From: a bacterium
Lineage (GTDB): Bacteria; Patescibacteriota; Minisyncoccia; UBA6257; JAGOQP01
Length of the DNA stretch: 45,740 nt
Assembly (NCBI GenBank): GCA_021801825.1
Contig: JAJYXK010000013.1
Location: forward strand, 1-45,740
Direction of reading: 5' to 3'
Shown here: piece after piece, positions 1,293 to 45,692 of the stretch
Numbering within the stretch: the stretch's first letter is position 1
Layout of the letters: each line of letters opens with the position of its first letter
Position numbers and translations under genes: made by a program
The notes under the pieces: model-generated
The model's database searches: none
Told to the model about the DNA's origin: nothing
Seen by the model: only the letters and a program-made list of their open reading frames with translations

Positions 1293-4200
1293 ATGTACAA
1301 ACGCATCTTATTATCATTACTTTTAATCGTCGGAGTTTTTGGAACCACCTCGTTAACACACGCATTGCCTGTGGAGAGTGTGGGAGTTACCCCTAGTCAA
1401 CAAACGTTGTCTTATGCAACGGTTCCGGTATATCAAAATGGAGTGCAAACAGGAACCACTAAGGCGTATACTGGATCTATTCTTGTATCCGTAACAAATC
1501 CCCAAAAAAAGAGTCTTTGCGTAACGGTTCCTTCAACGGTTTCTCTTGGGGGATACACCTTTCCTGTTGCGGGACGTGGTATCTCGGGGAGTGGGCAATG
1601 GGTTGGCGACAATCAAGTTTGTGGAAATGACAACTTTCAGGTTTCTGTTTCTATTAATGTGAAGTCAACAACTGGCGCAGCATTAGATGCTGGAACATAT
1701 TCATATCCAGTAACCTCAAATTCTTCTGGATATGAGAGTCTTTCCGCGAGTCTTATTATTTCGCGAGTTGCATATTCGGTAACCGGCGTTACACTCGCAC
1801 AGTATAATGCTAATGTGTATGATGCTACCAACTGTGATGTTTCTCAGGCGCAAGACCCCTACCAAGCAGGAGATTATAGAATGTGTAGAATTCTCCCTGT
1901 AAACAATAGAAACGGTTCAATCTTTGTAAATGGTGGTCCCGTGGGTCAAGTTGGGTCATTTATTACTGATGATCCCGGAACTACAGGAACATGGTCTCTT
2001 TATCTACCTAATTATAGAGCAACTATTCAAGGGGGAGTATTTTATGGTGGTACCGCATACAGAATATATACTGCGGCGCGGTTTGTGAATGGCGCTTGGC
2101 AAAAATCTTATGTGACCGAAATCGCTATAAATCCCGTTTCTGGACAGGGAGATTTCAGTAATGTGGATAGTATAAATATCTACACTCCTATGTCTCTTAG
2201 TTATAATTCTTTTACGCTTACCCCCGCGACTCAAACACAAACTACTACTCTTTCCGAATCATATTCACAATCGGGAACAATTTCTTTTAATGTTAGTGAC
2301 AGGGTTGGGGTTTCCTGCGGTGATGTTAATATGTCTGCCGTGGCAAAGGGCCCTCTGGCAAACTATGTGAGTGGTATTCAGGGAAATATCAATACCTCGT
2401 GCGCACCAACGATTTCATTTAATATAAAACCTTCATATGTTTCTAATCAGATAGTGTATAGATGTCCTATTGATGCTAATGGAGTCGATGAAGAGGGAAT
2501 TCCTCTCGCAGGTAAAATCGTGGCGAATGGATCGGTGAGTTGTGGAAGAGTTTCAACTATGGGAAACAAACTGGTATATCCATATGCCGATACTATCCCC
2601 ACTACGCATTATTTAAAAGACGACATTGTTGATAGTAGCGCTATTCAATTTGATGTTACGGGGAAAACATATGATGGATATATGACTATTGGAACTTCTC
2701 GTACCGTAAGCGCAACGGTTGTTCTTAAACCAACAGCTCCTACCAAGACTATCTCAATAAAATCAGGACAACCATCCGCCTCTTTTTCTGGGGATTCAAG
2801 GAATCAGACTGTTACTATTCCTGTAACCATAACTGCGACTGGATTTTCAAGTGAGAATGAAATTATTGCAAAGAGATCATATGGAGAACCTTTAAATAAG
2901 TTTCTTTCGATAGTTAGTTATTTTACTACTAATACTTCTTCATCAATTGTGAATGGGGCTACTACTCTCACAATCAATAAAAGTCTTACCATTGTTCGTA
3001 ACGGAGAAAATCCCACTTCTGATATAATTGGAGATATCCGACTCACTGCATTTAGTACTGATGGAACCGCTACTGCCACTCCAATAAATGTAAAAGTGAC
3101 TATTGATGGTCCCATTCTCCCCCCAGGAGATTTGCAACTACTTCCGCGATTACAATCAATGCATGTTGCAGAAAAAGATCTTCCCAAGACTGTTTTCTTT
3201 GATGTGACGGCAAGTACGACCGCTGACTGCAATTCAATTTCATACGTGAATGGATATCTTCCAGACATCACCCCAAGCTGGGTAACTCCCATGCGTGGAT
3301 TTGGGGGGAATAAATGTTTAACTAGATTTGCTGTTGCTTTACCCCCAGATGCTCTAAGTCACCTAAATCAATCTAATAACTCATTAATTGGAGTGACTGC
3401 GGGAACTGCGACTATAAATGGAACTACTACAACTGGGTTTGCGGGATTCTGGGTGACTGTTGATCCTTCTATTGTTGTTCCACCGACAACATTAACCGCA
3501 CATCTTGATTTGAGTAAATCTGGAGCAAAAGTTAATGAGGTTATAAATGCGACCACAACTTCAACAGGAGGAAGTGATCCTAAAACATATAAAATTAATT
3601 TCGGTGATGGCACAGGTGATCAACCAGGACAATTTCTCAGTCATGCGTATGCGGCTTCGGGATCATATACGGTGACGGGTACGGTGACCGATGCAAATGG
3701 CGTGGTAGCAACTGATTCAAAAGGAATTAATATCAATACGGTAGTTGTATCCGACTTGAAGGCTTTATTGTCGGTAAGTCCTACGCAAGTGGATGTGGGC
3801 GATCCTGTACAGGCGGCTCTCTCTGCTTCTGGAGGAACGGGACCATACTCTGCGTATAAAATTGATTTTGGTGATGGCACAATTTCAAACACTTCATCTG
3901 CGTCAAATTCATATGATTCTGCCGGCACGTATACCGTGACAGGAACTATTACTGATACAACGGGAGCTACCGCAAGTGTTAGTAAAACTATTTCGGTAAA
4001 TTATCCACGTATTCAAGCAGGAATCACTATTACTTCACCAACTCCTCAATCGCGTATTATTACTCCAGATAAAGTGATTGTGGCGGTATCAGCGAGCGGG
4101 GGACGAGGCGCGGGTACGTATAGATATTCCATAGATTTTGGTGATGGATCTTCTCCGATGGTGTATTCCAACGCAGGAGGTAGTGTTACCAATATTCAAC

Positions 4201-4667
4201 ACACCTATACAGCCGTTAGCTCGGTGACTAATTATCAGATTCAAGTAACCGTTACTGACATGGCGGGGCGCGCTCAAAGTGATAGCGCAAGTGTTACGCT
4301 TACTGCATATCCACCGCTTGCGTGTACCTTGAATATGAATAAGTCCATTGGACTTCCTCCATTTCATCCAACCTTTATCGTAAAGAGTAAAGGAGGGACT
4401 GAAAGTAAGTATCGTATTCTTATGAACGCCGATGGGGGAACAAAAGCGACCGATGAGGCATTTGTGAGCAATCCTGCTACTGCGTCTACTACCTTGAGTC
4501 AATACGTTTACTTAAGCTCAGGATCATATAGTCCAGTCGCTCGTGTGTTTGACCTAGATCTTATCGGAAGTGGATTTCTTGTGGGAACCAAGAATGCTTC
4601 TACTACCTGCGCTACTTCCACGACGGTTCTCTCAGGAAGTGGGGGAGAAACAACTCCAGGATTGTAG
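1293..4667 (+). CDS. Large secreted PKD-domain surface protein
   Basis: Start moved to MYKRILLSLLLIVGVFG signal peptide at 1293 (after the terminator); repeated PKD signatures (INFGDGTGDQPG..HAYAASGSYTVTGTVTD; IDFGDGTISN..YDSAGTYTVTGTITD; IDFGDGSSP..HTYTA). Confidence 0.85.
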   Translation: MYKRILLSLLLIVGVFGTTSLTHALPVESVGVTPSQQTLSYATVPVYQNGVQTGTTKAYTGSILVSVTNPQKKSLCVTVPSTVSLGGYTFPVAGRGISGSGQWVGDNQVCGNDNFQVSVSINVKSTTGAALDAGTYSYPVTSNSSGYESLSASLIISRVAYSVTGVTLAQYNANVYDATNCDVSQAQDPYQAGDYRMCRILPVNNRNGSIFVNGGPVGQVGSFITDDPGTTGTWSLYLPNYRATIQGGVFYGGTAYRIYTAARFVNGAWQKSYVTEIAINPVSGQGDFSNVDSINIYTPMSLSYNSFTLTPATQTQTTTLSESYSQSGTISFNVSDRVGVSCGDVNMSAVAKGPLANYVSGIQGNINTSCAPTISFNIKPSYVSNQIVYRCPIDANGVDEEGIPLAGKIVANGSVSCGRVSTMGNKLVYPYADTIPTTHYLKDDIVDSSAIQFDVTGKTYDGYMTIGTSRTVSATVVLKPTAPTKTISIKSGQPSASFSGDSRNQTVTIPVTITATGFSSENEIIAKRSYGEPLNKFLSIVSYFTTNTSSSIVNGATTLTINKSLTIVRNGENPTSDIIGDIRLTAFSTDGTATATPINVKVTIDGPILPPGDLQLLPRLQSMHVAEKDLPKTVFFDVTASTTADCNSISYVNGYLPDITPSWVTPMRGFGGNKCLTRFAVALPPDALSHLNQSNNSLIGVTAGTATINGTTTTGFAGFWVTVDPSIVVPPTTLTAHLDLSKSGAKVNEVINATTTSTGGSDPKTYKINFGDGTGDQPGQFLSHAYAASGSYTVTGTVTDANGVVATDSKGININTVVVSDLKALLSVSPTQVDVGDPVQAALSASGGTGPYSAYKIDFGDGTISNTSSASNSYDSAGTYTVTGTITDTTGATASVSKTISVNYPRIQAGITITSPTPQSRIITPDKVIVAVSASGGRGAGTYRYSIDFGDGSSPMVYSNAGGSVTNIQHTYTAVSSVTNYQIQVTVTDMAGRAQSDSASVTLTAYPPLACTLNMNKSIGLPPFHPTFIVKSKGGTESKYRILMNADGGTKATDEAFVSNPATASTTLSQYVYLSSGSYSPVARVFDLDLIGSGFLVGTKNASTTCATSTTVLSGSGGETTPGL

Positions 4668-4752
4668 AATAGTAAATATAGAAAATAAAATCCAAAACCC
4701 CCGAGAGGGGGTTTTGAGTTAAACCAAACTCTTTCAATCTTATCTATTGTGT
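4638..4752 (+). repeat. Direct repeat copy A (PKD gene 3' end + terminator)
   Basis: Near-identical to 10895-11005 (gtgggggaga..caactcc.ggattgtagaatagtaaatatagaaaata..caaaacccccgagagggggttttg..ttaaa.caaactctttc). Confidence 0.85.
4693..4716 (+). terminator. Rho-independent terminator after PKD gene
   Basis: caaaacccccgagagggggttttg hairpin. Confidence 0.75.
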
Positions 4753-4814
4753 ATTTATATAAAATGTGGTTAAATAAACTTAGTATATTACAATAAAATA
4801 AAGGAGAAATAATT

Positions 4815-6128
4815 ATGTTGTATAAAACATTGGATTCGCCACTTTCTATTCACTTAGAGGTGAATACCTCTTGTAACCAGAAATGTATTCATTGTTATAA
4901 TTTTTGGAGAAAGGAAGATAAACCAGTCTTCATTAATCTAAAAAAAGAACTTGCTGAGCATATAGTGCAACAGCTGAAGAGGTTTGGGGTGTTTCACGTT
5001 GTTCTTAACGGAGGGGAGCCTCTTATGAATTTATCAACCCTTCTCTTTCTAATAGATGCTCTTTCAAGAAATCAAATTAGTTTTTCTCTTAATACTAATT
5101 TGACCCTTCTTACTGAGTCATCGGCGCAAAAATTAAAAGATGCTGGACTTGAAATTTTGCTTACGTCGTTACTTTCACACAATCCTGCGGTTCACAACTA
5201 TCTTGCTCAAGAAGAAAATTCTTTTGAAAACTTCTTAAACGGTTTCAAAATTGCTAAAAAAGTTGGCTTCAAGATTACTGTTAATATGGTTGTATCTAAA
5301 GTGAACAAGAGAGACATTTTGGGGGTCGGTCTATTAGCGAATTCATTAGGGGCTTCGTCATTTTCTGCAACGCGAGTTATGCCTCAACATCCTTACAATT
5401 CGGATTTTAATGAGTTACTCGCCTTAGACAATGGGGATGTTGATCATATAATTAAATCGCTTATGATTTTACATTCTGATAATATTTTTGTTGAATCTCT
5501 TATCCCATATCCAACGTGTTCTTTCAACAATAACGCTGAATTCCTTGTCCTTGGAAGAAAGTCTTGTTCTGCTGGGAAAACCTCGTGTGTTATAGGGGCC
5601 GATGGTCTAGTTAGGGCATGTCCTCATGATAGTAAAGTATATGGAGATATCAAAAATGAAAATCTTGGTTTAATATGGCAAAACATGTCTGAATGGAGAG
5701 ATGGAAGCCTTATTCCTCTTGAATGCAAAAAATGTCATTTCTTTTCACAATGTGGCGGTGGATGTCGCATGACATCAACACATGTGTTTGAAAAAGATAC
5801 GGCTATGAGAGAGAACCAAATGGAATCAAAACACAATATAGCTATATATCCAAGTATGAAATCTCTTGATGGAATTGCTCTGTTGAGAGTAAAGGAAACT
5901 TGTAGATTTAGAAAGGATGGAGAACTTTGTGTTATAAACACCGGAGGAATGAAGAATGTGTTCATAAATTCGGAAACGTTTGGTTTACTTTCTACACTTT
6001 ATTCTGAAAAATCAAAATTTACAGTGTCTGAGCTTATTACTAAGTATGATTTACATATGAATTTGGAAGAATGTTGTAATTTCTTCTCTCATCTTGTAAA
6101 CAGGGGTGTTATTGAGATATTGACCTAA
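4815..6128 (+). CDS. Radical SAM/SPASM peptide-modifying enzyme with C-terminal PqqD-like (RRE) domain
   Basis: CNQKCIHC (CxxxCxxC) near N-term; SPASM Cys pattern C..GKTSCVIGADGLVRACP...C..C.FFSQCGGGCR; C-terminal ~75 aa FRKDGELCVINTGGMKNVFINSETFGLLSTLYSEKSKFTVSELITKY..LEECCNFFSHLVNRGVIEI resembles PqqD; SD aaggag. Confidence 0.85.
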   Translation: MLYKTLDSPLSIHLEVNTSCNQKCIHCYNFWRKEDKPVFINLKKELAEHIVQQLKRFGVFHVVLNGGEPLMNLSTLLFLIDALSRNQISFSLNTNLTLLTESSAQKLKDAGLEILLTSLLSHNPAVHNYLAQEENSFENFLNGFKIAKKVGFKITVNMVVSKVNKRDILGVGLLANSLGASSFSATRVMPQHPYNSDFNELLALDNGDVDHIIKSLMILHSDNIFVESLIPYPTCSFNNNAEFLVLGRKSCSAGKTSCVIGADGLVRACPHDSKVYGDIKNENLGLIWQNMSEWRDGSLIPLECKKCHFFSQCGGGCRMTSTHVFEKDTAMRENQMESKHNIAIYPSMKSLDGIALLRVKETCRFRKDGELCVINTGGMKNVFINSETFGLLSTLYSEKSKFTVSELITKYDLHMNLEECCNFFSHLVNRGVIEILT

Positions 6129-6196
6129 TCTTTTATCTATCCTACTATTAAGATGGTACACTAAGTACCTATTAGCTAATAAAGACGGAGTTTCCA

Positions 6197-6334
6197 ATGG
6201 AACTCAAATTTGTTTCTTTACTTAACCTCACAGATGATTGTAACAATCTATCCTGTTGTGAAAGTGGTAGTGGTGGATGTAACACGTGTCAATCAGGATG
6301 TGAGGGGGGGACAGAGGAGTGTGATGGAGAATAG
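6197..6334 (+). CDS. Cys/Gly-rich 45-aa putative RiPP precursor peptide
   Basis: Not in ORF track; translates MELKFVSLLNLTDDCNNLSCCESGSGGCNTCQSGCEGGTEECDGE (7 Cys); ggag SD 6 nt upstream; directly downstream of radical SAM gene and upstream of a terminator. Confidence 0.75.
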   Translation: MELKFVSLLNLTDDCNNLSCCESGSGGCNTCQSGCEGGTEECDGE

Positions 6335-6366
6335 CTCTCCCGTCTCGTTTGTTCTCTAGTATTAGA

Positions 6367-6401
6367 GCCCGTGCTATTTTGGCACGGGTTTATTTTTTTT
6401 T
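6367..6401 (+). terminator. Rho-independent terminator after precursor gene
   Basis: gcccgtgc-tattttg-gcacgggt followed by T-rich tract. Confidence 0.8.
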
Positions 6402-6424
6402 AATTTCGTGTAGTATATATGCAT

Positions 6425-7129
6425 ATGAGTTATCCTCACGTTACATTTCAATACAATATAGATAAAGATATCTCCAATTTGAAAATTGGACTCGCTGTTG
6501 CGCACAATGGAAGAAATAACGACGGGGAAATATCTCATATTGTGCGAGTTTATGACGCCAATCCTACAGATGAACAGCTATACGCCTATGTCAATAAGTG
6601 GTGGGGCGGTAGGGAACATCTAAAACCTCTTATTTTAGAACCTCTACAATCGTATTGGAATTCCGTAGAACATAGTTTCTTTGAAACACTATATTCCAAC
6701 ATGCAGTTAGATTCATGGTATGAGGTAAAAACTATTGATTCATTTCTCAGCATCCGTTATGGGTGTGGGTATAATGAGAAGGAAAATTGGTTTGCAACTA
6801 GTGTCCACGCGAGCTCTTTTCGAAATACTGCGACCGCCATGCATGAAATTATGCATATTTTCTTCCATAAACAGTGGTGGAATTTTTGTGTATCACAAGG
6901 GATTGAAAGTTCATATATATGGGATATTAAGGAATCATTTACTACACTTCTTAATGTGTGGTTTGAGGATTTGCTAATTGATACAGATTTCGGATATCCC
7001 GAGCACCAGAATTTACGCACAAAAATACGTGAGTGGCATCAAGAGAAGGATGATTTCAAAACTATGTGTGAAAAGGCGTGTTTGTATATGAAAGAACATC
7101 CCGAAGAACACGCGAAATGGAAAGTTTAA
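6425..7129 (+). CDS. Putative zincin-type metallopeptidase (HExxH)
   Basis: TAMHEIMHIFFHKQ (HEIMH) with a downstream acidic residue WDIKESFTTLLN; start 6419 or 6425. Confidence 0.55.
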   Translation: MSYPHVTFQYNIDKDISNLKIGLAVAHNGRNNDGEISHIVRVYDANPTDEQLYAYVNKWWGGREHLKPLILEPLQSYWNSVEHSFFETLYSNMQLDSWYEVKTIDSFLSIRYGCGYNEKENWFATSVHASSFRNTATAMHEIMHIFFHKQWWNFCVSQGIESSYIWDIKESFTTLLNVWFEDLLIDTDFGYPEHQNLRTKIREWHQEKDDFKTMCEKACLYMKEHPEEHAKWKV

Positions 7130-7295
7130 GTTTGGGATTGTCTTTATATAAGAGAGGGTTCATTTTTCTTGTTCTTTGTGCTCTGGTTCTTGATCCAGAT
7201 GATGTGTCGCTTCTTGAGAAAATAGTCCCTCAATTTATCCTTAATCTCCATAGCAAGATGTCTCTTCAAAAAACTGTTTTATGATAGTTAATATA

Positions 7296-7841
7296 TTATA
7301 GGGCAGTTTTTTTGAACGTAAGATTATTTGGATCTAATCCTTCAGATTTTATTATCTCTGTGGCAGTCCCCTTGATGATTTGTGAATTCTTGATATTCAG
7401 AGATTTCAACAATGTGTTTACGTCTTTTTTGCTAGACGCTTCAATTTCCATATATGGATTCATATTTGGATAAGTGTCTAGTTCTATTTTCGTGTCTTTT
7501 AATTTATATTCTTCTCTTATTTTTTCTCTATTCCTAAAAATTTTAAATCCCATAAATTCTAGGATTTTCTTTGCCTGTTCAAAACTACTAACCTGTATTT
7601 CATACTCGTCTCGGATTTCAAAATTTTTGTCTTCTTTTTTTACTTTTATGGTTAGAAATGTTTTTTTCCCCTCTTTTCGTAATCTAAGGGAAGAATACGC
7701 GCGTTCTTTTTGGGCTGATTCAAAATACAACTCATGCATTAAGGTTGGTTTCATAATTAACTTTCCCCCAATTTTTCTTAAATCTCTGCGCACTCTTTTT
7801 ACGTCAATGTCTAATATTTTTATTTCTATTTCTCTTTTCAT
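7296..7841 (-). CDS. CYTH domain protein (class IV adenylate cyclase/triphosphatase-like)
   Basis: N-term MKREIEIKILDID (ExExK), R-rich strands, LRLRKEGKKTFLTIKVKK, ELDTYPNMNPYMEIEA. Confidence 0.8.
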   Translation of the reverse strand: MKREIEIKILDIDVKRVRRDLRKIGGKLIMKPTLMHELYFESAQKERAYSSLRLRKEGKKTFLTIKVKKEDKNFEIRDEYEIQVSSFEQAKKILEFMGFKIFRNREKIREEYKLKDTKIELDTYPNMNPYMEIEASSKKDVNTLLKSLNIKNSQIIKGTATEIIKSEGLDPNNLTFKKTAL

Positions 7842-7847
7842 ATTGGA

Positions 7848-8588
7848 TTATATAAATAACAATTTGGTTATATCATTAAATATTTTTACCGACAAATCTA
7901 TTTCCTCTCTTAGTTTCTCTTCTGATATTATTGTTACTTCTTTTTTCGCCCTCATTTCCTCATATTTTTTTAATTGCTTGATTATTCTTATTGGAAGACT
8001 TTTCTCTGCTAAATATATGACTTCTCTGTATGTTGAGGGTGCTAGTTGTGGCTCTGCCAAGCTTTGTTTTAATATTAGAAAAATAATTTTTATGTTCTTT
8101 TTTAGTAATTTCTGAAGACTCTTTTTATCCTTGGTATGTGTAAAGATATCGGCGTTTCTCCTTAAAAAATTTTTATCCTGATCTGCAAGGGTTGCCCAGA
8201 ATCCATAGATAAAATCTTGGTAACCCATCGCGGGGATTTTTATATTTTTCTTTATTAAAACCTTTGTTTTTCCGAGGAAAAATAAAAAATTTTTAATTTT
8301 CCCATGTAATTTTCTTGGCTCGGTGTGTTCTATGGTATATTTCGAAACAATCATGGTGTCTATCTCAATTTTTGCAAGAGATTCTAACTCTTGCTCACAT
8401 TTTTTTACAAGTCTTAGATTTAGCGAATCTATCTTGTTTAAAACCAATAGCACATCTATGTCACTCCACCCATGGACAAAATTTTTTCTTCCAACGCTTC
8501 CTCCGACGATAAGTAAATTAATGTTTTTTCCCAAGGTCTTCCTATATGTGAAATGAATGGTTTTTAATAATTTATTTATATCTACCAT
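7848..8588 (-). CDS. Pol-beta superfamily nucleotidyltransferase
   Basis: LLIVGGSVGRKNFVHGWSDIDVLLVLNK (GGSxGR...SDID) plus downstream acidic residue KIEIDTMIV. Confidence 0.75.
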   Translation of the reverse strand: MVDINKLLKTIHFTYRKTLGKNINLLIVGGSVGRKNFVHGWSDIDVLLVLNKIDSLNLRLVKKCEQELESLAKIEIDTMIVSKYTIEHTEPRKLHGKIKNFLFFLGKTKVLIKKNIKIPAMGYQDFIYGFWATLADQDKNFLRRNADIFTHTKDKKSLQKLLKKNIKIIFLILKQSLAEPQLAPSTYREVIYLAEKSLPIRIIKQLKKYEEMRAKKEVTIISEEKLREEIDLSVKIFNDITKLLFI

Positions 8589-9412
8589 AATAACATATTT
8601 AATTTTTTTGTTGACCAATTAAATTGGTGTATAGATCGATTTTTAATATAAGTTCCTGGGTTTAGTTTTATCACCTTTCTATTATCTTTGACTACAAGCG
8701 ATCCATGAAGAATAAACATATTTTCAAATATTTTTGTGTATTCTTGTAGTGTTTTATTCATCACGTTTTTCTTCGACGATATTATTAATTCTTCTATTTT
8801 TATCATTCTTTGCCCAACTCCGTTTTCTGGTATAAATTTTTTCCTTTTTATTATGTCTTTTCTGCAATCATTTTGTTCTAAGCATTGGTATTTTTGAATC
8901 CCTATTTTTTTTCTTAGTAATGTTTTGTTAAATTGAAGATATCCATCCCTCTCTCTTCCATAATCGTCCTGTATTCTTATGAGGTTATATTTATTTGGGG
9001 GAGATTCTAGCTCTAAAACCCTTGAATAAAATACTTTGTCTTTATTAATTGTCTTATGAGCAAGCCCTGCTTTAATGATTCTAAAATCACCAGGATGCAA
9101 TACATTTCTACTACTAAGCGTCTCTAAAATAATATCTCCCTGAATTACAATATTTAGTGTATCTTTCTGGGGATGACAATGTAGTGATGTGGAAGACGTT
9201 GGTTTTATGTGAAGTTCCCATATTTCTACTTTTTTATTTTTTCCACACAGATATTCGTATCCCCATGGTTTTTTCACTATAAAATTTTTAAAGTCAAAAG
9301 CGCCAGTTCTTTTTATCTTTCTAATAGATTTATTTCTGATGATACGCGCGTCTTTCTTTGTTGGGTTAATTACTTTTTGAGATTTTATAATATGTGGATA
9401 TTCTGTAATCAT
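8582..9412 (-). CDS. Cupin-domain protein (mannose-6-phosphate isomerase-like), apparently bicupin
   Basis: VKKPWGYEYLCGKNKKVEIWELHIKPTSSTSLHCHPQKDTLNIVIQGDIILE; second cupin-like half FENMFILHGSLVVKDNRKVIKLNPGTYIKN. Confidence 0.75.
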   Translation of the reverse strand: MITEYPHIIKSQKVINPTKKDARIIRNKSIRKIKRTGAFDFKNFIVKKPWGYEYLCGKNKKVEIWELHIKPTSSTSLHCHPQKDTLNIVIQGDIILETLSSRNVLHPGDFRIIKAGLAHKTINKDKVFYSRVLELESPPNKYNLIRIQDDYGRERDGYLQFNKTLLRKKIGIQKYQCLEQNDCRKDIIKRKKFIPENGVGQRMIKIEELIISSKKNVMNKTLQEYTKIFENMFILHGSLVVKDNRKVIKLNPGTYIKNRSIHQFNWSTKKLNMLLW

Positions 9413-9936
9413 TTGTTTTTCAAAAAATCTATTATGGCCTTTACGAACGGTGCAAGATCTCGTGGGTGTCTGGATGTTATGATATTTTTATCTACTACCA
9501 CTGGTTCATCTTGATATATTGCCCCTGCATTTTGTAGGTCATCTATTATGGCGCGATAACACGTTGCGACTTTTCCTTTCATGATTTTTGCAGAAATAGG
9601 AATCCATACTCCGTGACAAATTGCTGCCACTAGCTTGTTTTTGTTGTACATATCCATAACAAAGTTTAAAACATCCCTGTTCATCCTAAGTCTATCTGGG
9701 CCCTCATTTCCTCCTGGGATAACAACACAGTCAAAATCATTTTCTTTGAGATCTTCTAGCTTTATGGTCCCTTGCATAGGAAATCCAAATTTCCCAAAAG
9801 CTGTCTTCTTCTGATCCGTTGCTATTTCGATTGAAATATTTTCTTCCTCTTGTAGCCTATAGAAAGGATAAATAGCTTCTTCGTCTCTGAAATCTGTTTC
9901 TAGTAAGATAACTATTCTTTTTGTTGTGTTGTTCAT
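9409..9936 (-). CDS. DJ-1/PfpI family protein
   Basis: DCVVIPGGNEGPDRLR...KLVAAICHGVWIPISAKIMKGKVATCY (nucleophile elbow AICHG). Confidence 0.85.
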   Translation of the reverse strand: MNNTTKRIVILLETDFRDEEAIYPFYRLQEEENISIEIATDQKKTAFGKFGFPMQGTIKLEDLKENDFDCVVIPGGNEGPDRLRMNRDVLNFVMDMYNKNKLVAAICHGVWIPISAKIMKGKVATCYRAIIDDLQNAGAIYQDEPVVVDKNIITSRHPRDLAPFVKAIIDFLKNK

Positions 9937-10778
9937 GTTTTTTGTTTTATTGTTGAATTATGTTTTGTAGTAATCCCATTTCTTTTCAAATATTTAATAC
10001 CGGCATTATCTCCATAAGGAAAAAGATAAGAGACTTTTTTAATTGAGGATTTGGCAATTGCTTTTGCGCACATCAAGCAGGGGGGTATTAAAATATGCAT
10101 AGTACATTTATCTAGATTTAATTTCTTCTTTCTAATTTCCTCTAGTAATAGAATTTCAGCATGTTCTTCGCTAGCTGAATTTTTTGACTCTGCAATAATT
10201 TTACCATCTTTGTCTTCCAGCACGGCTGTTATCTTTGAATGTAGCCCATTACTTAGAATTGTATTTTTAAGTAATCTTTTTGAAATTTCATCTTGCTTCT
10301 GTTTCGTGTTGATTGAGTATAGTTTTTGGCGATTAAGAAAATCAGACAAACGAAAAGGGGCGTATTTAATGTCTAATTTTTTGTACGTTTTTTTTATCTC
10401 TTCTCCAAGTTTTTTTCTGTAGGTTATATTATCATTTTGGAACGCGATTGTTTTTGGTTTTATTTTTTTTATACACTCGGTGTCGTGTGCCGTTTTATTT
10501 TCAATTAACACATAGTCTACAAAATTTAGTGATGAAATAATTTGAGCACGAGTACTATGTGTGGCCGAAAGTGGACTAGTAAAACCCCTTCTCTGTAAAA
10601 CCATCTTATCTCGCTGAACAATCACAATGAGTGGGCGTCCTTGTTTTGATGCCCACTTTAACAATCTAAAGTAGTATTCATTAAAAGGATCAAAAGATCC
10701 ACTAATTAGAGTTGCTGAATTCTGTTTTACCAGAGACGGAATCTCTTTTAGTGTGTAAATCTTATTTTTTTCACACAT
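9933..10778 (-). CDS. Cytidylyltransferase-like domain fused to CMP/dCMP deaminase-like domain
   Basis: N-term LISGSFDPFNEYYFRLLKWASKQ...; C-term EEHAEILLLEEI...ILIPPCLMCAKAIAKSSIKKVSYLFPYGD (HAE + PCxxC). Confidence 0.75.
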   Translation of the reverse strand: MCEKNKIYTLKEIPSLVKQNSATLISGSFDPFNEYYFRLLKWASKQGRPLIVIVQRDKMVLQRRGFTSPLSATHSTRAQIISSLNFVDYVLIENKTAHDTECIKKIKPKTIAFQNDNITYRKKLGEEIKKTYKKLDIKYAPFRLSDFLNRQKLYSINTKQKQDEISKRLLKNTILSNGLHSKITAVLEDKDGKIIAESKNSASEEHAEILLLEEIRKKKLNLDKCTMHILIPPCLMCAKAIAKSSIKKVSYLFPYGDNAGIKYLKRNGITTKHNSTIKQKT

Positions 10779-10803
10779 TTTTATCTTGTTTATCTTGCCG
10801 TGT

Positions 10804-10809
10804 ATTATA
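10804..10809 (-). promoter_or_regulatory. Candidate -10 box (TATAAT) for minus-strand five-gene cassette
   Basis: attata on + = TATAAT on -, about 30 nt upstream of the 10778 start; -35 is weak. Confidence 0.4.
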
Positions 10810-10894
10810 TCACGTTGCTAAGTTGATGAAAATGAACTCCTTAAAGCCATTGGGTTGTGTAGATATTAGTCATTTGTCTCTATATAAATGGTCT

Positions 10895-11005
10895 TGTGGG
10901 GGAGACAACTCCGGGATTGTAGAATAGTAAATATAGAAAATAGAAATTCAAAACCCCCGAGAGGGGGTTTTGTTAAATCAAACTCTTTAAACTTTTATCT
11001 TTATA
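10895..11005 (+). repeat. Direct repeat copy B (remnant PKD gene 3' end + terminator)
   Basis: Encodes ...GETTPGL* in the same context as PKD gene end; terminator caaaacccccgagagggggttttg at about 10949-10972. Confidence 0.85.
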
Positions 11006-11020
11006 TTTTATACTGATTGT

Positions 11021-11482
11021 ATGGTTATATATATTGGCTCAGATCATCGTGGTTTTACTTTAAAAGAGGGACTAGTGTCGTATCTTAAAGGTGTTGGATA
11101 TGAGGTTGTGGATTGTGGTAACACTGAACATAATGAACAAGATGATTATGTTGATTTTGCGAGCGCGGTAGCGCGTCATATCAGTAGAGATCCCAACCAA
11201 CGGGGGATTGTGTTGTGTGGATCGGGAGTTGGGGTTTCTATCGTGGCGAATAAATTTTCCAACGTGCGTTGTTCACTTTGTTTTTCTTCTGATCAGGCTA
11301 TCGCGGCGCGACATGATGATGATGCAAATGTAATCGCGATTCCTGCGGATTTTATTTTGGGAGACGCGGCGAAAAAAATGATTGCGGTGTGGTTGCAAAC
11401 GCCTTTTAACGGTGGGGATGCCTATGTGCGTCGTTTGCAGAAAATCAGCGAGGTGGAATATGAGGTAAAAGAAAAAATGTAA
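11021..11482 (+). CDS. rpiB: Ribose-5-phosphate isomerase B
   Basis: IYIGSDHRGFTLKE...GIVLCGSGVGVSIVANKFSNVRCSLC...ARHDDDANVIAIPA. Confidence 0.9.
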   Translation: MVIYIGSDHRGFTLKEGLVSYLKGVGYEVVDCGNTEHNEQDDYVDFASAVARHISRDPNQRGIVLCGSGVGVSIVANKFSNVRCSLCFSSDQAIAARHDDDANVIAIPADFILGDAAKKMIAVWLQTPFNGGDAYVRRLQKISEVEYEVKEKM

Positions 11483-16751: not shown

Positions 16752-18218
16752 ATGCGTTTGTCTCAGATTTCTTTTTGGTTTTTTATATTATCAATGGTGG
16801 GCATGGGTGGTGTTGCAATTGGGATACCTATTTTGTATATAGCAAGTGTGGCGATTCTTATGGGAATCGTTTTTTCTTTTATTGGATTTTTTACCGACAC
16901 GCATATATGGATATGGAGAGGAATTGTGTGTCTCTTTGTTTTATGTGGCGCTGTGTATGCGCTTTGGTATACATCTCTGATCACTCGTGGGCCATCAGTT
17001 AGTTATTATAATGAACAAAATATTTCAGGACGTGTGATCTCATATCCTCGTATGTCTGATGCTACACAATCATTTTTGTTGAAAGTTTCTGAGAGTGTTG
17101 TTTCTACGCGCATTTCTTCTACCTATCGTGTTCGTTATGGAGACGCTATTTCACTACGTGGAGCCATAGAGCCGTTATCAAGCTCCACACAATATTTGGC
17201 TCGTGATGGCGCCATTGGGACTCTTTCATTCGGAACACTCATATCTATTACTCCGCCCACCTCATTTTCCTTACTAAGAACGTTATATGCGGTCCGTGAT
17301 GTGGTGGTGGGTGTTTTTAATAAAGTTTTTTTGCGAGATCAATCGGCGCTTGCTTCGGGATTATTATTGGGTCAGCAAAGCGCTTCGTTTTCCGGTGAAT
17401 TAAAGAATGATATGAAGCAGAGTGGAACAACACATCTTGTTGCGCTTTCGGGATATAACATATCAATTATTATTCAGGTACTGTATGGCATTGTGGGATT
17501 TTGGGTGTCGCGCAATAAATCTTTTCTTATAATGATTGTGGGAATTATTTTATTTGTGTGTATGACGGGAGCGGAGGCGTCGGTAGTGCGCGCCGCTTTC
17601 ATGAGTTCTTTACTGCTAATCGCCGAACGACTTTCTCGTATATACGATTTTGCTCAAGCAATGGCGGTGACCGCATGGATTATGGTTATACTGAATCCAC
17701 TCACGGCGCCGTTTAACATTGGTTTTGTATTATCGTTTGCTTCTTTGTGGGGGATGTCATACCTTGGTCCAATCTTTTTATCGTACCTTAATCGTATCCC
17801 TGTTTTATACACAACTCACTCAAAAAAATTGTATACCGTTATTGTGCAAACACTTTCTCAAACATTGGGGGCGCAGATTGCTGTTGCTCCATTGTTGATG
17901 GTGTGGTTTGGTGGAATTTCCATTTCTGGGGTTATAACAAATGTGGTGCTTCTTCCTTTAGTTCCCTTGGTAATGGGGCTTTCATCTTTTGTTGCGCTTG
18001 CGGGTTTTTTGTTTTTACCATTCGGATGGCTGGCGTCTTTTGTGGTAAGTCCGCTCCTTTCGTTTTTCTTGTGGGTGATTCATGTGGGAGCGCAGTTTGG
18101 ATTTGTCACACATACGATTTCATGGTGGGTTGTGGCACTTTGTTATATGGTGTTGTGGTGGATTGTGATACGATATAAAAAAATGTCTGTTTCTACTAGT
18201 ATGGCGTGCGCAGTGTAA
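16752..18218 (+). CDS. ComEC/Rec2 family DNA-uptake channel protein (membrane part)
   Basis: SALASGLLLGQQSASFSGELKNDMKQSGTTHLVALSGYNISIII, multiple TM helices. Confidence 0.88.
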   Translation: MRLSQISFWFFILSMVGMGGVAIGIPILYIASVAILMGIVFSFIGFFTDTHIWIWRGIVCLFVLCGAVYALWYTSLITRGPSVSYYNEQNISGRVISYPRMSDATQSFLLKVSESVVSTRISSTYRVRYGDAISLRGAIEPLSSSTQYLARDGAIGTLSFGTLISITPPTSFSLLRTLYAVRDVVVGVFNKVFLRDQSALASGLLLGQQSASFSGELKNDMKQSGTTHLVALSGYNISIIIQVLYGIVGFWVSRNKSFLIMIVGIILFVCMTGAEASVVRAAFMSSLLLIAERLSRIYDFAQAMAVTAWIMVILNPLTAPFNIGFVLSFASLWGMSYLGPIFLSYLNRIPVLYTTHSKKLYTVIVQTLSQTLGAQIAVAPLLMVWFGGISISGVITNVVLLPLVPLVMGLSSFVALAGFLFLPFGWLASFVVSPLLSFFLWVIHVGAQFGFVTHTISWWVVALCYMVLWWIVIRYKKMSVSTSMACAV

Positions 18219-18235
18219 ATAAAATATTTTTTACT

Positions 18236-19084
18236 ATGTCTCGTTTTATCTGGATAACTTTATCTTTATGTATATGTGCCGCAGGCGCATTGTGGGGATA
18301 TATCATTTTTGTGTCCGCTCCGCATGGAACAGAATTATTTTTTCTACCCGTGGGGCAGGGTGATGCGCAACTAGTTCGTGTTGGGGGCATAAATGTTCTT
18401 ATTGATGGAGGTCCGAACCGAGGCATACTTTCTTCATTAGACACTATTTTGGGTGCGCGGGGCCATATTGATATTGTGTTCGTTTCTCATGGACAGACAG
18501 ATCATATACAAGGGTTGTTTGATGTTGTGTCCTCTCGTCCTGTTGGTGTTTTGTTGTATCAAGGGGCGACGACTCCGTTGCTTGAACAATTATTTGTACG
18601 CGCCCGTGAGTATTCTGTGCCCGTGGTACAAATAAAAACGGGATCTACACTTTTATACAAAGATGCTTTGTTTGAGGTGTTGTCGTTTGAGCCGTCTATT
18701 CATAAGTTTGACTCAAGTGGTATTAATGACGATTCATTAGTTCTTAAATTTACGACCCCTGGGGGATGCGCGTTGTTTACTGCTGATATTGGTTCTGATG
18801 CCGAACGACAACTGAGCTCTTATTATAAAAATAAATTAGATTGTGATGTTTTGAAAGTTGCTCATCATGGATCTAAAACTTCATCACTTCCCGAATTCTT
18901 GCGAGCTGTTTCTCCTGCGCTTTCTGTTATTGAAGTTGGGAAGAATTCATATGGACATCCTACGCCGGAGGTATTAACACGTCTTGCTGGTGTGGGGAGT
19001 AGGATACTCCGCACAGATCAAGATGGAATCGTACGGGTGTTATTACAACCAGACAAATTAATCATATCTTCTCTAAAAATGTAG
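18236..19084 (+). CDS. ComEC-type metallo-beta-lactamase domain protein
   Basis: FLPVGQGDAQLVRVGGINVLIDGGPNRGI, VFVSHGQTDHIQGL, VLKVAHHGSKTSSLPEFL. Confidence 0.85.
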   Translation: MSRFIWITLSLCICAAGALWGYIIFVSAPHGTELFFLPVGQGDAQLVRVGGINVLIDGGPNRGILSSLDTILGARGHIDIVFVSHGQTDHIQGLFDVVSSRPVGVLLYQGATTPLLEQLFVRAREYSVPVVQIKTGSTLLYKDALFEVLSFEPSIHKFDSSGINDDSLVLKFTTPGGCALFTADIGSDAERQLSSYYKNKLDCDVLKVAHHGSKTSSLPEFLRAVSPALSVIEVGKNSYGHPTPEVLTRLAGVGSRILRTDQDGIVRVLLQPDKLIISSLKM

Positions 19085-35698: not shown

Positions 35699-36502
35699 AT
35701 GAACACCTTCTTAACAATCTACGACAAACTCAACACTATCGTATCACAGTTCTTCAAAACATTAAAATTCAAGGAGCGGGAACATTCCAAAGGTCGGAAA
35801 CCAATACTCAAAAATTCCGAAGCGGTCACGGCTGTCATTTTCTGGAGGAGACAGAACATCGGCAGTAAGAAGTCTCTATACGAAATTCTAGAACCTTCGA
35901 TGTCTTACAACCGCTTTGTTGTGGCCCTAAACAAAACGGCAAAATATCTGGCGACAATTATCACGGCTGTCATGAAATTTCTCCGCAAAAACGCTCATTT
36001 GGTTAAATTTACAGATTCAACCGAGCTTCCTGTCTGTCTCAATAAAAACGCAAAACAGCATAAGACTATGAGAGGACTGTCGGCTAAATCCAAAAGTTCC
36101 AAAGGTTGGTTCTATGGCTTAAAACTTCACCTTTCGGCTGACTGCCAAGGAAAAGTTTTGGCGATAAAGTTCACACCGGGCAATTCTAATGATAGGAGCA
36201 TATTCAAAAAAATGAACGACAAACAGAGAGGGTTATTCGTAGCCGACGCGGGCTATGTGTCTGAAGAGCTTGAGCGAGATTTTTTCATTGAACATGAACG
36301 ATTAGTCATTACTTGCCCGCGCAAGAATATGAAAAAACTTTCGGTTCCATGGCAAATCAGTCTCTTGAATTTGCGAATGAGAGTGGAGATTCACTTCCGC
36401 GTTCTCAAGGTTTGCTACGGACTGGTTACATCGCTTCCTCGTTCCATCGATGGTTACTTGACCCATTATATTGCCGCCATTGCTACCCATCTCATATCTT
36501 AA
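35699..36502 (+). CDS. IS982-family-like transposase
   Basis: VKFTDSTELPVC...GWFYGLKLHLSADCQGKVLAIKFTPGNSNDR...LFVADAGYVSEELE...RMRVEIHFRVLKVCYGLVTSLPRSIDGYLTHYIAAI. Confidence 0.85.
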   Translation: MNTFLTIYDKLNTIVSQFFKTLKFKEREHSKGRKPILKNSEAVTAVIFWRRQNIGSKKSLYEILEPSMSYNRFVVALNKTAKYLATIITAVMKFLRKNAHLVKFTDSTELPVCLNKNAKQHKTMRGLSAKSKSSKGWFYGLKLHLSADCQGKVLAIKFTPGNSNDRSIFKKMNDKQRGLFVADAGYVSEELERDFFIEHERLVITCPRKNMKKLSVPWQISLLNLRMRVEIHFRVLKVCYGLVTSLPRSIDGYLTHYIAAIATHLIS

Positions 36503-36631
36503 TTATTGAAAGTTTCGGTTTTCCTTGCTGTTTCTTCCTTGAATCTTTAGTTTGAGCTTGTTTTTTTCAAAACCACAGACGGCTGTGGCGAGTTTAAAGT
36601 GTATTTAAAAACGCATTTCGTTATTCACAGT

Positions 36632-37501
36632 ATATAATAAGTCAAAGTCGGGAGTTGGAATGTTGTTGTATGCAGTGGGGCTTTCTTTTGCAATTTGTTC
36701 AAAAAATGAGCCATGTACGAATGCGCTTCTCGCTGAATATAATTCTTTTATGTCTTTTTCAACGTCGGGGAACCTCCAAGCAAGCAATGCGGCCATACGT
36801 TTACGTAAACGATACATAACTTCCTCATTACGAGCGTCACCGGCAGTAAAAAGAGCCTCAAGGATTGTCGCCATCTCTGCCGATTCTCTTTGCCAGCCAA
36901 ATGAACTTTTTGAATTCTCATAGTCTGACAATCCTGAATACAGGAAAGCGGCTACAAACAACCTCCAATCCTCTTTATTCCATGACTGAATACGATCTAA
37001 ATGCCAGCTACCATATTTTGATTGCTCATAAAGCGTCTTATAAAAATCTACAAAGTTTTTATTATTAAAGATTGAGTGGTTTTGATTGTGGAAGTAAATC
37101 ATAGGATCTTTACCGTGCGTCTGACGCATAATACCCATATCAGTTGCATGGAAAACGGGATAGAGAAAATTTGGAGAGTAAAGGTTTAGCAAAAATAACG
37201 TCTCGGCATAACTAAAACCGCCCTCTTCAAGGGTATTGGGAATAAGCAAACCCCATGAGCATTTTTCGTATTGCTTCTCAGTAATTCCAAATAAATCTTG
37301 TACATTATCCTCAATTTTGTAATTACGAAGTACATTATCATTTATCGGTGCTATTTTATTCTTTAATGCACCGACAAATTCATCTGTGGTAAATTTCTTG
37401 AGATTCCAAAGCTCATATCCATCTTTGAGCTCAAATAATTTAGTGTCCTCGTTTATGGGATTGCCAGTAAAGGCAAAAAACATTGTTGTTGCTCTAGCCA
37501 T
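36632..37501 (-). pseudogene. 5' part of IS-disrupted HEPN-motif protein gene
   Basis: Start MARATTMFF at 37501; KELYSARSAFVHGSF (R-x4-H HEPN-like); ORF runs into IS right end (TVNNEMRF). Confidence 0.7.
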
Positions 37502-39311
37502 TTGGTTTATCGTTTTTTCTGATGACGGACAGGCAAAGTAGAATGTGGAATAGTCTGTTCGCAATTTGTTCATCAGCAAATGCGTTTTTATTAATGCCAT
37601 GCGCCAAGTTATTTCTTAAATTCCAACCAATGCGTGAAGTGAGCAGAACATGGAAATAATATTCAACGTCCTCGCCTTTAGTCCCAAAAATCTTTTTTAT
37701 AACACCCGATTTAATTAATTCATGTAATGACTTTTCATCATAACCGCCATCATCATTGGGTTTGATTGTTGAAACGCCACTAGTTTTGCAAAGATTTCTG
37801 ATAGCATCTTCAATAAGAGGAATTATAAGATTACTGAATGCAAGAAAATCTCTTGTCCAATACAAATTAAGTGTCTTCAAAATATAATTCTTATCTTCCG
37901 GACGAAATACGGGTGATAGGGATATCCCTTGATATAGGATATCTGGTGTGTAATATTTTATAAATTCATCAAAAGCCCACTTTAAAAAAGGCGATTGAAA
38001 ATGTAAATTCTGTGAGAAGTGTCGGAGTAAATGCTTGTCGTAGTCTTCGTTAATGGGGCCGAATTGTGCCGTGGGATAATTAAACTCCGATACAACTGTG
38101 TTAGTAACTAGATATTGAAAAACATATTTACTTGAAATATCTTTTAGTTGTTTATCGACATGATCTTTCTTCAGAATAAAAAATATTACCAATTTAGAAA
38201 TTACTTTATTTATATCATCGGTCGAATTTTCTGATCGCTTTTCTCCGAAAATTGAGTCGAGAAATTGTTTAATTTCCTCGTTTTTTATTGTAAATTCAGT
38301 TGATACTTCATGAGTAGCAAATTTCCCGCGCTCACCTATATTGCTAATTTCGGCTCTTATTCTTGTTGCGGCCTTTTTTGCAAACTCAAATTTAGAATAA
38401 CGTGAATAAATGTCTGAAATTTTTTCTAGGTAATTCAGTATTAACAAACCATCAGAATTCGCTTGTTTGCTGTCACGAAATGATTTTTCTAATTTAGAGA
38501 GCACTAATTGTAGTTTTTCTTCATTCTCGGTCAGAGCATAGTGTTCAGCAAGCAACACAACGGCACATTCGATATTCCAAGTGTTTGATTCTTCTGATTT
38601 TGATAAACGGTCCAACCTATTTTCTAAATCTAGCAATAAAGTATTTTTCTGCTCGGCGGTAATTTGATTAAAATTGGTATTTTCAAGAAGAAGCCACCTG
38701 AAAGCATAGCCCCAAAGTCCAGGCTTATCATCTTCGGCGAATTTGTTCTCTGTCTCGATGATTACCTGAACTAAGCTACTTAAACGCGAAGAATCATTAA
38801 TTTGCTTTGCTAAAGTGAGGGCGCGTTCTAGCTTGTCCTTACAACCGAGCCCATCATCAAGATTTTTTGCACAAATTTCCAACGTCGCATCTATAACTTT
38901 TTGAACCATTTTGAAATCAAACGATCCGTTTTTAATTTTCGGTTCAAAATCAACAACTAGGTCGGCATATCTACAAACGATTATTGGATGTTTAGAAGCG
39001 TTTGCACGTTCGCGCCAATAATTTAACATCGCCTCGTCAACCGATTTTATGCTAGGGAATTCAACCATCTGATTTTTATCGTTCGGCAAAACAAACATAG
39101 GGCCATAGTATGTGCCCCAACCAGTTTCTTTATTTCGATAATTTGCTAAAAATTGAAACGCTATATATTCGGCAAGTTCGTGTTTATCAGTAAGTTTTTC
39201 ATCTTTGACTTTAAGGATATCCCGAATTTTTTCGCCTATCTTAAATTCATCGATTGGCTCGATGTTATTATCAAGATCTTCGAGATATTGCTTTAATTCT
39301 TCCCTGATCAT
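37494..39311 (-). CDS. 605-aa protein with C-terminal HEPN-like motif (DUF4209-like)
   Basis: IGWNLRNNLAHGIN (R-x4-H followed by G); overlaps next gene by 8 nt. Confidence 0.6.
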   Translation of the reverse strand: MIREELKQYLEDLDNNIEPIDEFKIGEKIRDILKVKDEKLTDKHELAEYIAFQFLANYRNKETGWGTYYGPMFVLPNDKNQMVEFPSIKSVDEAMLNYWRERANASKHPIIVCRYADLVVDFEPKIKNGSFDFKMVQKVIDATLEICAKNLDDGLGCKDKLERALTLAKQINDSSRLSSLVQVIIETENKFAEDDKPGLWGYAFRWLLLENTNFNQITAEQKNTLLLDLENRLDRLSKSEESNTWNIECAVVLLAEHYALTENEEKLQLVLSKLEKSFRDSKQANSDGLLILNYLEKISDIYSRYSKFEFAKKAATRIRAEISNIGERGKFATHEVSTEFTIKNEEIKQFLDSIFGEKRSENSTDDINKVISKLVIFFILKKDHVDKQLKDISSKYVFQYLVTNTVVSEFNYPTAQFGPINEDYDKHLLRHFSQNLHFQSPFLKWAFDEFIKYYTPDILYQGISLSPVFRPEDKNYILKTLNLYWTRDFLAFSNLIIPLIEDAIRNLCKTSGVSTIKPNDDGGYDEKSLHELIKSGVIKKIFGTKGEDVEYYFHVLLTSRIGWNLRNNLAHGINKNAFADEQIANRLFHILLCLSVIRKNDKPNG

Positions 39312-39339
39312 TTCTCATTAACTTAGATCTACGCTTCTC

Positions 39340-40137
39340 TTAAAGAATAACGGTCACTTTTTCATACAACATTGGCCAGCTATCCTGACGCATTCTAAAT
39401 TTGGTACCGTGATTATGACCACTGCGAGCATCGAAGTCGACGAGAATCTTTGCTTCTTCAATTGCTTTCAAAAATCCCTCAAAGCTGAACTTTTGAAGCA
39501 TCATAACCTTATTGTATTTGTAATATTCTTTTCCTCGGACTGTTTTGACTTCTGCCTGAACATAAAAACTATTCAAAAGTTTTGTACCGGCCTTATGTTC
39601 AAGATCATCAAAACCCCAATATGGCTGTGGATTAAGTTCGCCAAGTCCTACTCGTTCCTTTACCGCCTTAAGCCATTCGGCGTGTCGGATATCCACGCTC
39701 TTCGCATCAAAAGATATTAAGACTTTCTTTTCGGTCCGATCGATCTTTACCATAAAACCACGATCACTACGTGTAAGACCATGAATAGTCTGTCTAAAAC
39801 TCATCTCACCTTTTGGATATTTCTTTCCATCTTCCTGATGTGCCCAGCCATACTTTGGTAAAAGGACTTGTGGCACAAAACGAATAGCTCTAGGGGAGGG
39901 CTCAATGTGAAATAAAGTACAAAGAGAAGTTGAATTCAATCGTTGGGCTTTTAGTTCCCATTCGGCTGCATTTGGTATGGGTAAATTGTTTTCTTTGATT
40001 CCGAGTAAGTCCTCGAGAGTATTCCCGATACCGCCATGATTGCCCTTGCGAGCATTAGGAACCCACCCCATATTTGCAATCTCTTTTAATTTTTCAATGA
40101 GGGCCGGCTTTGTGTAAATTTTTGGTTTGTTTGGCAT
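39340..40137 (-). CDS. MvaI/BcnI-family type II restriction endonuclease
   Basis: GNHGGIGNTLEDLLGIKENNLPIPNAAEWELKAQRLNS (GNTLEdlLGI.eNN...ELK); C-terminal HNHGTKFRM. Confidence 0.85.
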   Translation of the reverse strand: MPNKPKIYTKPALIEKLKEIANMGWVPNARKGNHGGIGNTLEDLLGIKENNLPIPNAAEWELKAQRLNSTSLCTLFHIEPSPRAIRFVPQVLLPKYGWAHQEDGKKYPKGEMSFRQTIHGLTRSDRGFMVKIDRTEKKVLISFDAKSVDIRHAEWLKAVKERVGLGELNPQPYWGFDDLEHKAGTKLLNSFYVQAEVKTVRGKEYYKYNKVMMLQKFSFEGFLKAIEEAKILVDFDARSGHNHGTKFRMRQDSWPMLYEKVTVIL

Positions 40138-40141
40138 ATGT

Positions 40142-40969
40142 TTATAAAAGTTTTTGTTGAGCTTTATGATTTTTAATTCTTTTCTTGGCCATCTCGCAAT
40201 ATTCCGGCGAAAGGTCGATACCGATATAATGCCGGTTAAAATTTATAGCAGAAAGTGCGGTAGTGCCTGAACCCATAAATGGGTCCAGAATAATTTTTGC
40301 ATTTGTAGACGACACAATACGATCTATAAGATTTACAGGGAAAGCGGCCGGATGTTCGTTATTCATCTCCTGGGTAAATTCCCATACGTCACCGTGGCCA
40401 CTTGCCTTAGGTGATAATTTAAACTTAGGTTTGGCGATAAGATAGATCACTTCGTATGTCGGCACGAAGTAACCAGGATTAAAATTAAAACCGCCCTTTC
40501 TTCTCCAAATTATTATCTGGCGCACAGGAAAGCCACTTACAATATCCTGCCGATCCTGCAAAACACCTCCTTGTACTCGCCACTTGTGATTATAAAAAAT
40601 TGCGCCATCTTCGGGGATAATTCTCATCATCTCCGTTAAGCATTCACGTTGCCATTTCACATACTCATCATGAGGCATGCAATCGTCGTGATGTGAATAT
40701 CCATTTTGAAGAGCCGCATTTGCCCACTTACCCTTACTACCATTTTTCATTCCGTTACCAGTAGAGTTTTTGAGATTATATGGAGGTGAGGTCACTATCA
40801 AATCAACCGAACCATCGGGTATTTTTTTCATAATATCAACCGCGTTACCGCAGATGATTTTATTTAAAAAGTGATTAGGGTATTCTAACTTCATAACTTT
40901 GGATTTAATAGGACTCGTTTTGGTTCTTGTTTTTACTTGAGTTTCCATATTATTTTGAATGCTTTTCAT
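40142..40969 (-). CDS. Type II DNA amino-methyltransferase (beta class, probably N4-cytosine)
   Basis: VDLIVTSPPYNLKN (motif IV) preceding ILDPFMGSGTTALSAINFNRHYIGIDLSPEYCEMA (motif I). Confidence 0.88.
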   Translation of the reverse strand: MKSIQNNMETQVKTRTKTSPIKSKVMKLEYPNHFLNKIICGNAVDIMKKIPDGSVDLIVTSPPYNLKNSTGNGMKNGSKGKWANAALQNGYSHHDDCMPHDEYVKWQRECLTEMMRIIPEDGAIFYNHKWRVQGGVLQDRQDIVSGFPVRQIIIWRRKGGFNFNPGYFVPTYEVIYLIAKPKFKLSPKASGHGDVWEFTQEMNNEHPAAFPVNLIDRIVSSTNAKIILDPFMGSGTTALSAINFNRHYIGIDLSPEYCEMAKKRIKNHKAQQKLL

Positions 40970-45681: not shown

Positions 45682-45692
45682 GCTAACGGCCC
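45617..45692 (-). tRNA. tRNA-Ala (TGC), CCA-encoded
   Basis: Minus: GGGCCGT TA GCTTAGTTGGTAGAGC G CGTCA-TTTGCAA-TGACG AGGTC AGGAG-TTCGAAT-CTCCT ACGGTCC ACCA. Confidence 0.93.

Follow-up and report, generated by a model that had tools for sequence, protein, structure and literature searches.

Direct-repeat-flanked accessory DNA is already known, and several described systems resemble the locus reported here: a 6.2-kb block of DNA at positions 4746-10895, lying between a gene for a PKD-repeat surface protein and rpiB in a member of the Patescibacteriota (Minisyncoccia; UBA6257; JAGOQP01; assembly GCA_021801825.1). The window analyzed is the 45,740-nucleotide stretch of contig JAJYXK010000013.1, and the block within it carries a locus for a ribosomally synthesized and post-translationally modified peptide (RiPP) between two copies of the 3' end of the PKD gene. 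In Campbell-type single crossover and homology-facilitated illegitimate recombination, cargo likewise comes to lie within a short chromosomal direct duplication, with one intact and one truncated gene and no need for a recombinase. Those routes are known from laboratory transformation and conjugation, whereas the case in the window is inferred from one genome together with analogous loci. In laboratory bacteria, linear DNA can integrate either by one-sided homology or by circularization followed by a recA-dependent single crossover (PMC3240628).

Genomic islands of the tRNA-gene type, bounded by attL and attR, share with the window a duplicated 3' end that restores or keeps the target, and variable cargo at a fixed spot. 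The window differs from them in having no integrase, a long repeat that is 10% diverged, and protein-coding targets that vary by locus. The genomic islands of Patescibacteria resemble our block as accessory DNA in streamlined genomes and are credited to competence, conjugation and phages, but the accessible portion of the source describes neither duplicated gene ends nor RiPP cassettes (PMC12455944). The cargo type in the window is that of radical SAM/SPASM RiPP loci, and that of the equivalent block in a congener is the YcaO/SagB azole type. The window maturase falls below the listed NCBIfam equivalog cut-offs, and its Cys-rich precursor has no family.

A diverged direct repeat on either side of the block

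A gapped local alignment pairs 4639-4776 with 10896-11031. The core of the repeat (copies 1 and 2 in Table 1) is 89.9% identical over 109 columns by BLAST, with an E value of about 1e-32 to 1e-34, and its alignment score of 163 compares with a maximum of 34 among 500 shuffles. The repeat spans the last seven codons of the PKD gene, the stop, a hairpin and about 45 bp further. The hairpin CAAAACCCCCGAGAGGGGGTTTTG (24 bp) is identical in both copies, and the longest exact runs they have in common are 29 and 24 bp. Without gaps the copies are only 72% identical, because small indels separate them. The first-pass annotation had placed near-identical copies at 4638-4752 and 10895-11005; those coordinates hold within a few bases, while the identity is lower, at about 90%. 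It had also reported that both copies end in GETTPGL and a stop followed by the same hairpin, and that the second has no PKD gene attached, and we found both to be so. Upstream of GETTPGL at copy 2, tblastn returned no convincing PKD similarity, and the left edge of this copy is abrupt. On the other side, homology is lost at 4745-4752 (about 11000-11005 in copy 2), some 20 bp 5' of the rpiB ATG at 11021.

The repeat occurs twice in its own genome (654 kb in 24 contigs, 92% complete), and everything else that matched was a short hairpin look-alike (E > 0.01). This rules out a dispersed element, one of two outcomes named beforehand as able to overturn the idea of an insertion; the other, two repeats in relatives lacking the segment, was not seen either. 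An RNA family is also not supported, as Rfam gave no match at the repeat, and a search of viral contigs found no match to it. For a transposon or insertion sequence we found no transposase in the block, a duplication of about 105 bp, and inverted-repeat pairs that are either the hairpins themselves or weak. The copies also lack a near-identical attachment core, with about 90% identity over 105 bp.

The interval between PKD and rpiB in relatives

A metagenome-assembled genome of the same genus, WY3.bin166 (hereafter G001), contains the same flanks. Its PKD gene is 83% identical over the C-terminal 214 amino acids and ends in GETNPGL and a stop, followed by the same 22-bp hairpin core. Between this gene end and rpiB, however, the G001 interval holds a YcaO/SagB-type fusion, a DUF2268 protease, a minus-strand Cys/Gly-rich peptide and another minus-strand gene. 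This cassette is unrelated to the RiPP cassette of the window although it sits between orthologous flanks, and G001 has a single copy of the repeat, the second being absent. Since the flanks are the same and the content is replaced, the PKD-rpiB interval is a variable spot, occupied by one RiPP locus in one species and by another in its sister. The 4746-10895 block is thus accessory DNA at this cassette spot. The YcaO cassette itself is dispersed among other families.

Only two of 244 genomes of the order, the window's own and G001, contain this PKD gene, and the spot is filled in both. Another genome collection searched for further relatives with the PKD gene gave G001 again, and viral contigs gave nothing. 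Six further members of the family instead have gapA ahead of rpiB, separated from it by one or a few genes, and keep the order of rpe and transketolase downstream (gapA, rpe and transketolase being named from sequence). A further comparison genome, G002, lacks the PKD gene; it has 103-bp, 89% identical intergenic direct repeats (L013:3081-3183 and 4040-4142) flanking a transketolase N-terminal gene.

Similar layouts elsewhere

Two other loci show the same layout as the window. In the same genome, on contig C15 (L072:1521-4951), an O-antigen-ligase-like gene is followed by a Fic-family gene and then by a 76-bp, 95% identical copy of the last 26 codons of the ligase gene with its stop. No empty counterpart of the Fic insertion was visible in G001, where the contig breaks within the ligase gene. 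A ligase fragment on contig C23 was considered as a further scar and ruled out, as the fragment is cut by the contig end. In G082, from another family, 65-bp repeats of 95% identity (L049:7137-10099) enclose a helix-turn-helix (HTH)/Doc pair, a related radical SAM gene and a protease. The first bases of these repeats are the three final codons and the stop of the gene upstream, which is 5-hydroxymethyldeoxyuridine (5-hmdU)-kinase-like, and they are the sole two copies in the G082 genome.

Other repeats near RiPP loci are of a different kind. In G217 (L053), the maturase gene is spanned by promoter-like repeats (TTGACT...TATAT) at 3773, 6855 and 9411, with a further copy on contig C13. The four copies stand before two different radical SAM genes and two other genes; a duplicated gene end is ruled out here, and shared control of RiPP loci is possible. 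G204 has a 98-bp repeat (L052:2649-2746 and 4489-4586) near a radical SAM RiPP locus, in which a strong-promoter-like stretch is followed by a hairpin and T-run, and whose two copies may encode a small RNA. No flanking repeats were found at L047, L050, L051 and L054 or at the YcaO loci.

Direct repeats span two of 12 related maturase genes (eight radical SAM and four YcaO, the window being left out) and three of 257 control genes (Fisher p 0.017). Among 583 kb of sampled stretches, a survey for direct repeats of at least 45 bp, 0.8-15 kb apart, yielded about four loci. The recurrence of duplicated gene ends around cargo suggests a recurrent route.

Proposed origin of the block

The layout in the window consists of an intact target on one side, a truncated direct copy on the other and an abrupt outer edge. 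From this sequence pattern, we put at about an even chance that the block was added by RecA-type homologous recombination of transformed DNA anchored on the PKD 3' end. In the ancestor, the PKD gene end, the terminator and rpiB would have followed one another directly. The incoming DNA would have come from a relative that already carried a cassette downstream of the same PKD gene, and would have joined via the short shared PKD 3' end, either by single crossover of a circularized fragment or by one-sided homology combined with an illegitimate joint. The left side would then keep a complete PKD gene, and the right side would show the PKD end and terminator that belonged to the recipient, with a sharp break at the joint (10895/10896). 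The duplication covers the gene end and terminator and reaches nearly to the start of rpiB, so that neither neighboring gene is broken, which would explain why such insertions survive. Competence and homologous-recombination genes are retained in Patescibacteria (PMC12455944), and a ComEC-like gene pair was recognized by eye in the window at 16752-19084.

The divergence between the copies bears on this proposal. Aligned without gaps, the two GETTPGL coding stretches show three differences, all at third codon positions (GGA/GGG, GAA/GAG and CCA/CCG) and none changing an amino acid; on these seven codons, so read, the synonymous-only pattern suggests two functional gene ends, alleles or paralogues, rather than a scar that decayed after duplication. 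The copies are also closer to each other than to G001, since their identity of about 90% runs on into the non-coding 3' flank and G001 aligns no further than the gene end and hairpin (73 bp at 78%).

Several observations weigh against an origin by recombination of transformed DNA. At about 105 bp and 10% divergence, the shared tract offers RecA little length for efficient recombination. The first 20 bp can be aligned about equally well with gaps, with one 2-nt deletion and one substitution, which would mean decay after duplication, and the differences between the copies, when polarized with G001, split three sites against two and are uninformative. Ten of the 12 related maturase genes lack flanking repeats; the enrichment is modest, and its control stretches were partly drawn from other genomes. 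Finally, the first-pass annotation took the segment for an inserted block and proposed looking for the empty site. The same flanks, single copy and unrelated cassette in G001 agree with an insertion, but an empty PKD-repeat-rpiB site was found neither among the 244 genomes of the order nor in the further collection, and no donor was seen there.

The main rival is paralogue loss, an alternative already raised in the first-pass annotation. It would start from an ancestral order of PKD1, cassette, PKD2 and rpiB; a deletion running in from the 5' end would then have removed all of PKD2 except the last codons and terminator. We regard this as unlikely, but do not dismiss it because G001 has a tandem duplication of the PKD 5' region: just upstream, at L012:5726-6898, a 444-bp part of the PKD gene 5' region is present twice at 85% identity, so PKD genes do duplicate here. 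The synonymous-only divergence of the ungapped reading would suit a functional paralogue equally, and in the window's own genome other sugar clusters likewise begin with ligase paralogues. Yet this history requires a duplication, an insertion of cargo between the copies and a deletion that stopped a few codons before the stop. No PKD trace lies 5' of copy 2, and the check suggested in the first-pass annotation, for a second gene ending in GETTPGL, came up empty in the window's own genome. Three unrelated loci, moreover, retain short remnants only (65-106 bp), where random deletions should leave long ones too.

The repeat could also be a terminator-plus-promoter module that was copied independently of the block's arrival, like other regulatory segments repeated between genes in these genomes, but this is improbable. 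Intergenic direct repeats do occur elsewhere in the order, as in the four-copy promoter-like repeat of G217 and the promoter-hairpin repeat of G204. The window repeat, by contrast, occurs in two copies only and holds PKD coding sequence, whose last codons would be needless for regulation, and the survey of unbiased stretches found such repeats to be rare.

A site-specific integrative element at the gene 3' end, with the copies as attL and attR and its recombinase lost or acting in trans, appears a little less probable again. An intact gene on one side with a 3' end and stop on the other does resemble elements at gene ends, and the window does have a gene for a large serine recombinase outside the block (44101-45681). 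However, Pfam and NCBIfam scans of the block genes recognized no integrase, transposase or recombinase, attachment cores are normally identical and shorter, the G001 cassette occupies the same place without a second copy, and the target genes differ per locus (PKD, ligase, 5-hmdU-kinase-like). A transposon or integrase element is therefore unlikely, as the block has no recognized recombinase and the repeat is long and diverged. Least probable is a chimera of strains in this metagenome-assembled contig: the assembly is fragmented into 24 contigs at 92% completeness and the repeats sit where a false joint would form, but the longest exact run in the 90% identical copies is about 29 bp, both junctions are coherent with distinct sequence, and a related layout recurs in other assemblies.

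A broader extension of the recombination proposal is that Patescibacteria repeatedly load weapon-like cargo, such as RiPP cassettes and Fic/Doc genes, next to a gene, with a short second copy of that gene's 3' end or regulatory junction on the far side, in an integrase-free, RecA-driven exchange of cassettes. We consider this generalization doubtful at present.

Gene content of the block and neighboring features

Between the repeat copies lie two modules, a plus-strand RiPP locus followed by a five-gene minus-strand operon with genes tightly packed or overlapping (Table 1).

Table 1 Coordinates of the repeat copies, block genes and flanking genes in the window.
Feature	Position	Strand	Evidence or remarks
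PKD-repeat surface protein gene, 3' end duplicated	1293..4667	+	Pfam PKD_4 1.5e-28; 1124 aa from ATG at 1293
Repeat copy 1	4639..4745	+	PKD gene end (GETTPGL and stop), hairpin, ~45 bp 3' flank; joined to intact PKD gene
Radical SAM/SPASM peptide maturase	4815..6128	+	Radical_SAM 2.4e-21, SPASM 3.8e-5
Putative Cys-rich precursor peptide, 45 aa, 7 Cys	6197..6334	+	Translation; no NCBIfam match
HExxH putative protease, maturase-linked	6419..7129	+	Motif HEIMH read from sequence; no Pfam or NCBIfam match
CYTH-domain protein, minus operon	7296..7841	-	Pfam CYTH 2.5e-14
Nucleotidyltransferase-fold protein	7848..8618	-	NTP_transf_2 9.8e-7
Cupin protein, mannose-6-P isomerase-like	8582..9412	-	Cupin_2 5e-9
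DJ-1/PfpI family protein	9409..9936	-	DJ-1_PfpI 2e-47
Cytidylyltransferase-like + cytidine/dCMP-deaminase-like fusion, first minus-operon gene	9933..10778	-	dCMP_cyt_deam_1 2.4e-11, CTP_transf_like 2.7e-6
Repeat copy 2	10896..11000	+	Orphan PKD gene end, hairpin, 3' flank; immediately 5' of rpiB
rpiB, right flank of block	11021..11482	+	LacAB_rpiB 2e-43; 93% aa identity to G001

The window maturase scores below all NCBIfam equivalog cut-offs listed. Its relatives occur in seven other genomes of the order at 32-47% identity (43-47% in other families); their surroundings are unrelated, and the minus-operon module is missing there. Cys-rich open reading frames (ORFs) also trail the maturases of relatives at L051, L052, L053 and L054, and homologues of the HExxH protein adjoin those at L047, L048 and L051. 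The deaminase fusion has one homologue (38%) among the 243 other genomes of the order and is otherwise absent from the genus and family; in a sample of 380 genomes from the phylum, nothing besides itself was found. As maturase relatives occur without the second module and the deaminase fusion is nearly unique, the block is probably a composite of the RiPP module and the minus operon; under the recombination proposal the two would have arrived together. The five-gene operon was considered as a defense system and set aside, with only weak resemblance to an oligonucleotide cyclase (in the nucleotidyltransferase-fold protein) and to a dCTPase. The block is AT-rich: its genes, those of the minus operon included, have a GC content of 29-37% (43% in the peptide ORF) versus 41-45% for most of the flanking housekeeping genes; values of 37-39% also occur nearby. 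This difference in composition agrees with an acquired block.

The longest PKD ORF starts at a TTG at 1188, and the N-terminus of the protein, MYKRILLSLLLIVGVFGTTSLTHA, is signal-like. The homologue in G001 is 80-83% identical in its C-terminal part. The N-terminal part differs between the two species and the C-terminal part is conserved; the gene is thus mosaic. Proteins with a type IX secretion system (T9SS) type A sorting domain (Por_Secre_tail) are encoded in the same place in both species, at 260-1168 in the window and L012:3443-4351 in G001. The T9SS belongs to Bacteroidota and their allies, and sorting-domain proteins are unexpected in Patescibacteria.

At the far end of the window (44101-45692), the end of the large serine recombinase gene overlaps a tRNA-Ala gene (45617-45692, minus strand) at the contig end. 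A DNA methyltransferase and other accessory genes (36605-40969) lie to the left of the recombinase, and the region is a probable integrated element. An ORF at 35699-36502 is transposase-like, of IS4/IS5 type by eye.

Implications

The interest of the locus lies in the PKD-rpiB spot itself, in the swapped RiPP classes and in the recurrence of duplicated gene ends. If cassettes are exchanged by the route outlined above, the flanking duplicate would let a cassette leave as a circle and enter the genome of another strain, so that sister species would trade different peptide products at a single site beside a surface gene. The genomes of Patescibacteria are minimal but vary in genes possibly used on neighbors or hosts. 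A surface-gene spot occupied by a radical SAM RiPP locus here and by a YcaO locus in the sister species, where a repeat would record the insertion, makes a route of gene gain testable from sequence in bacteria that are mostly uncultured.

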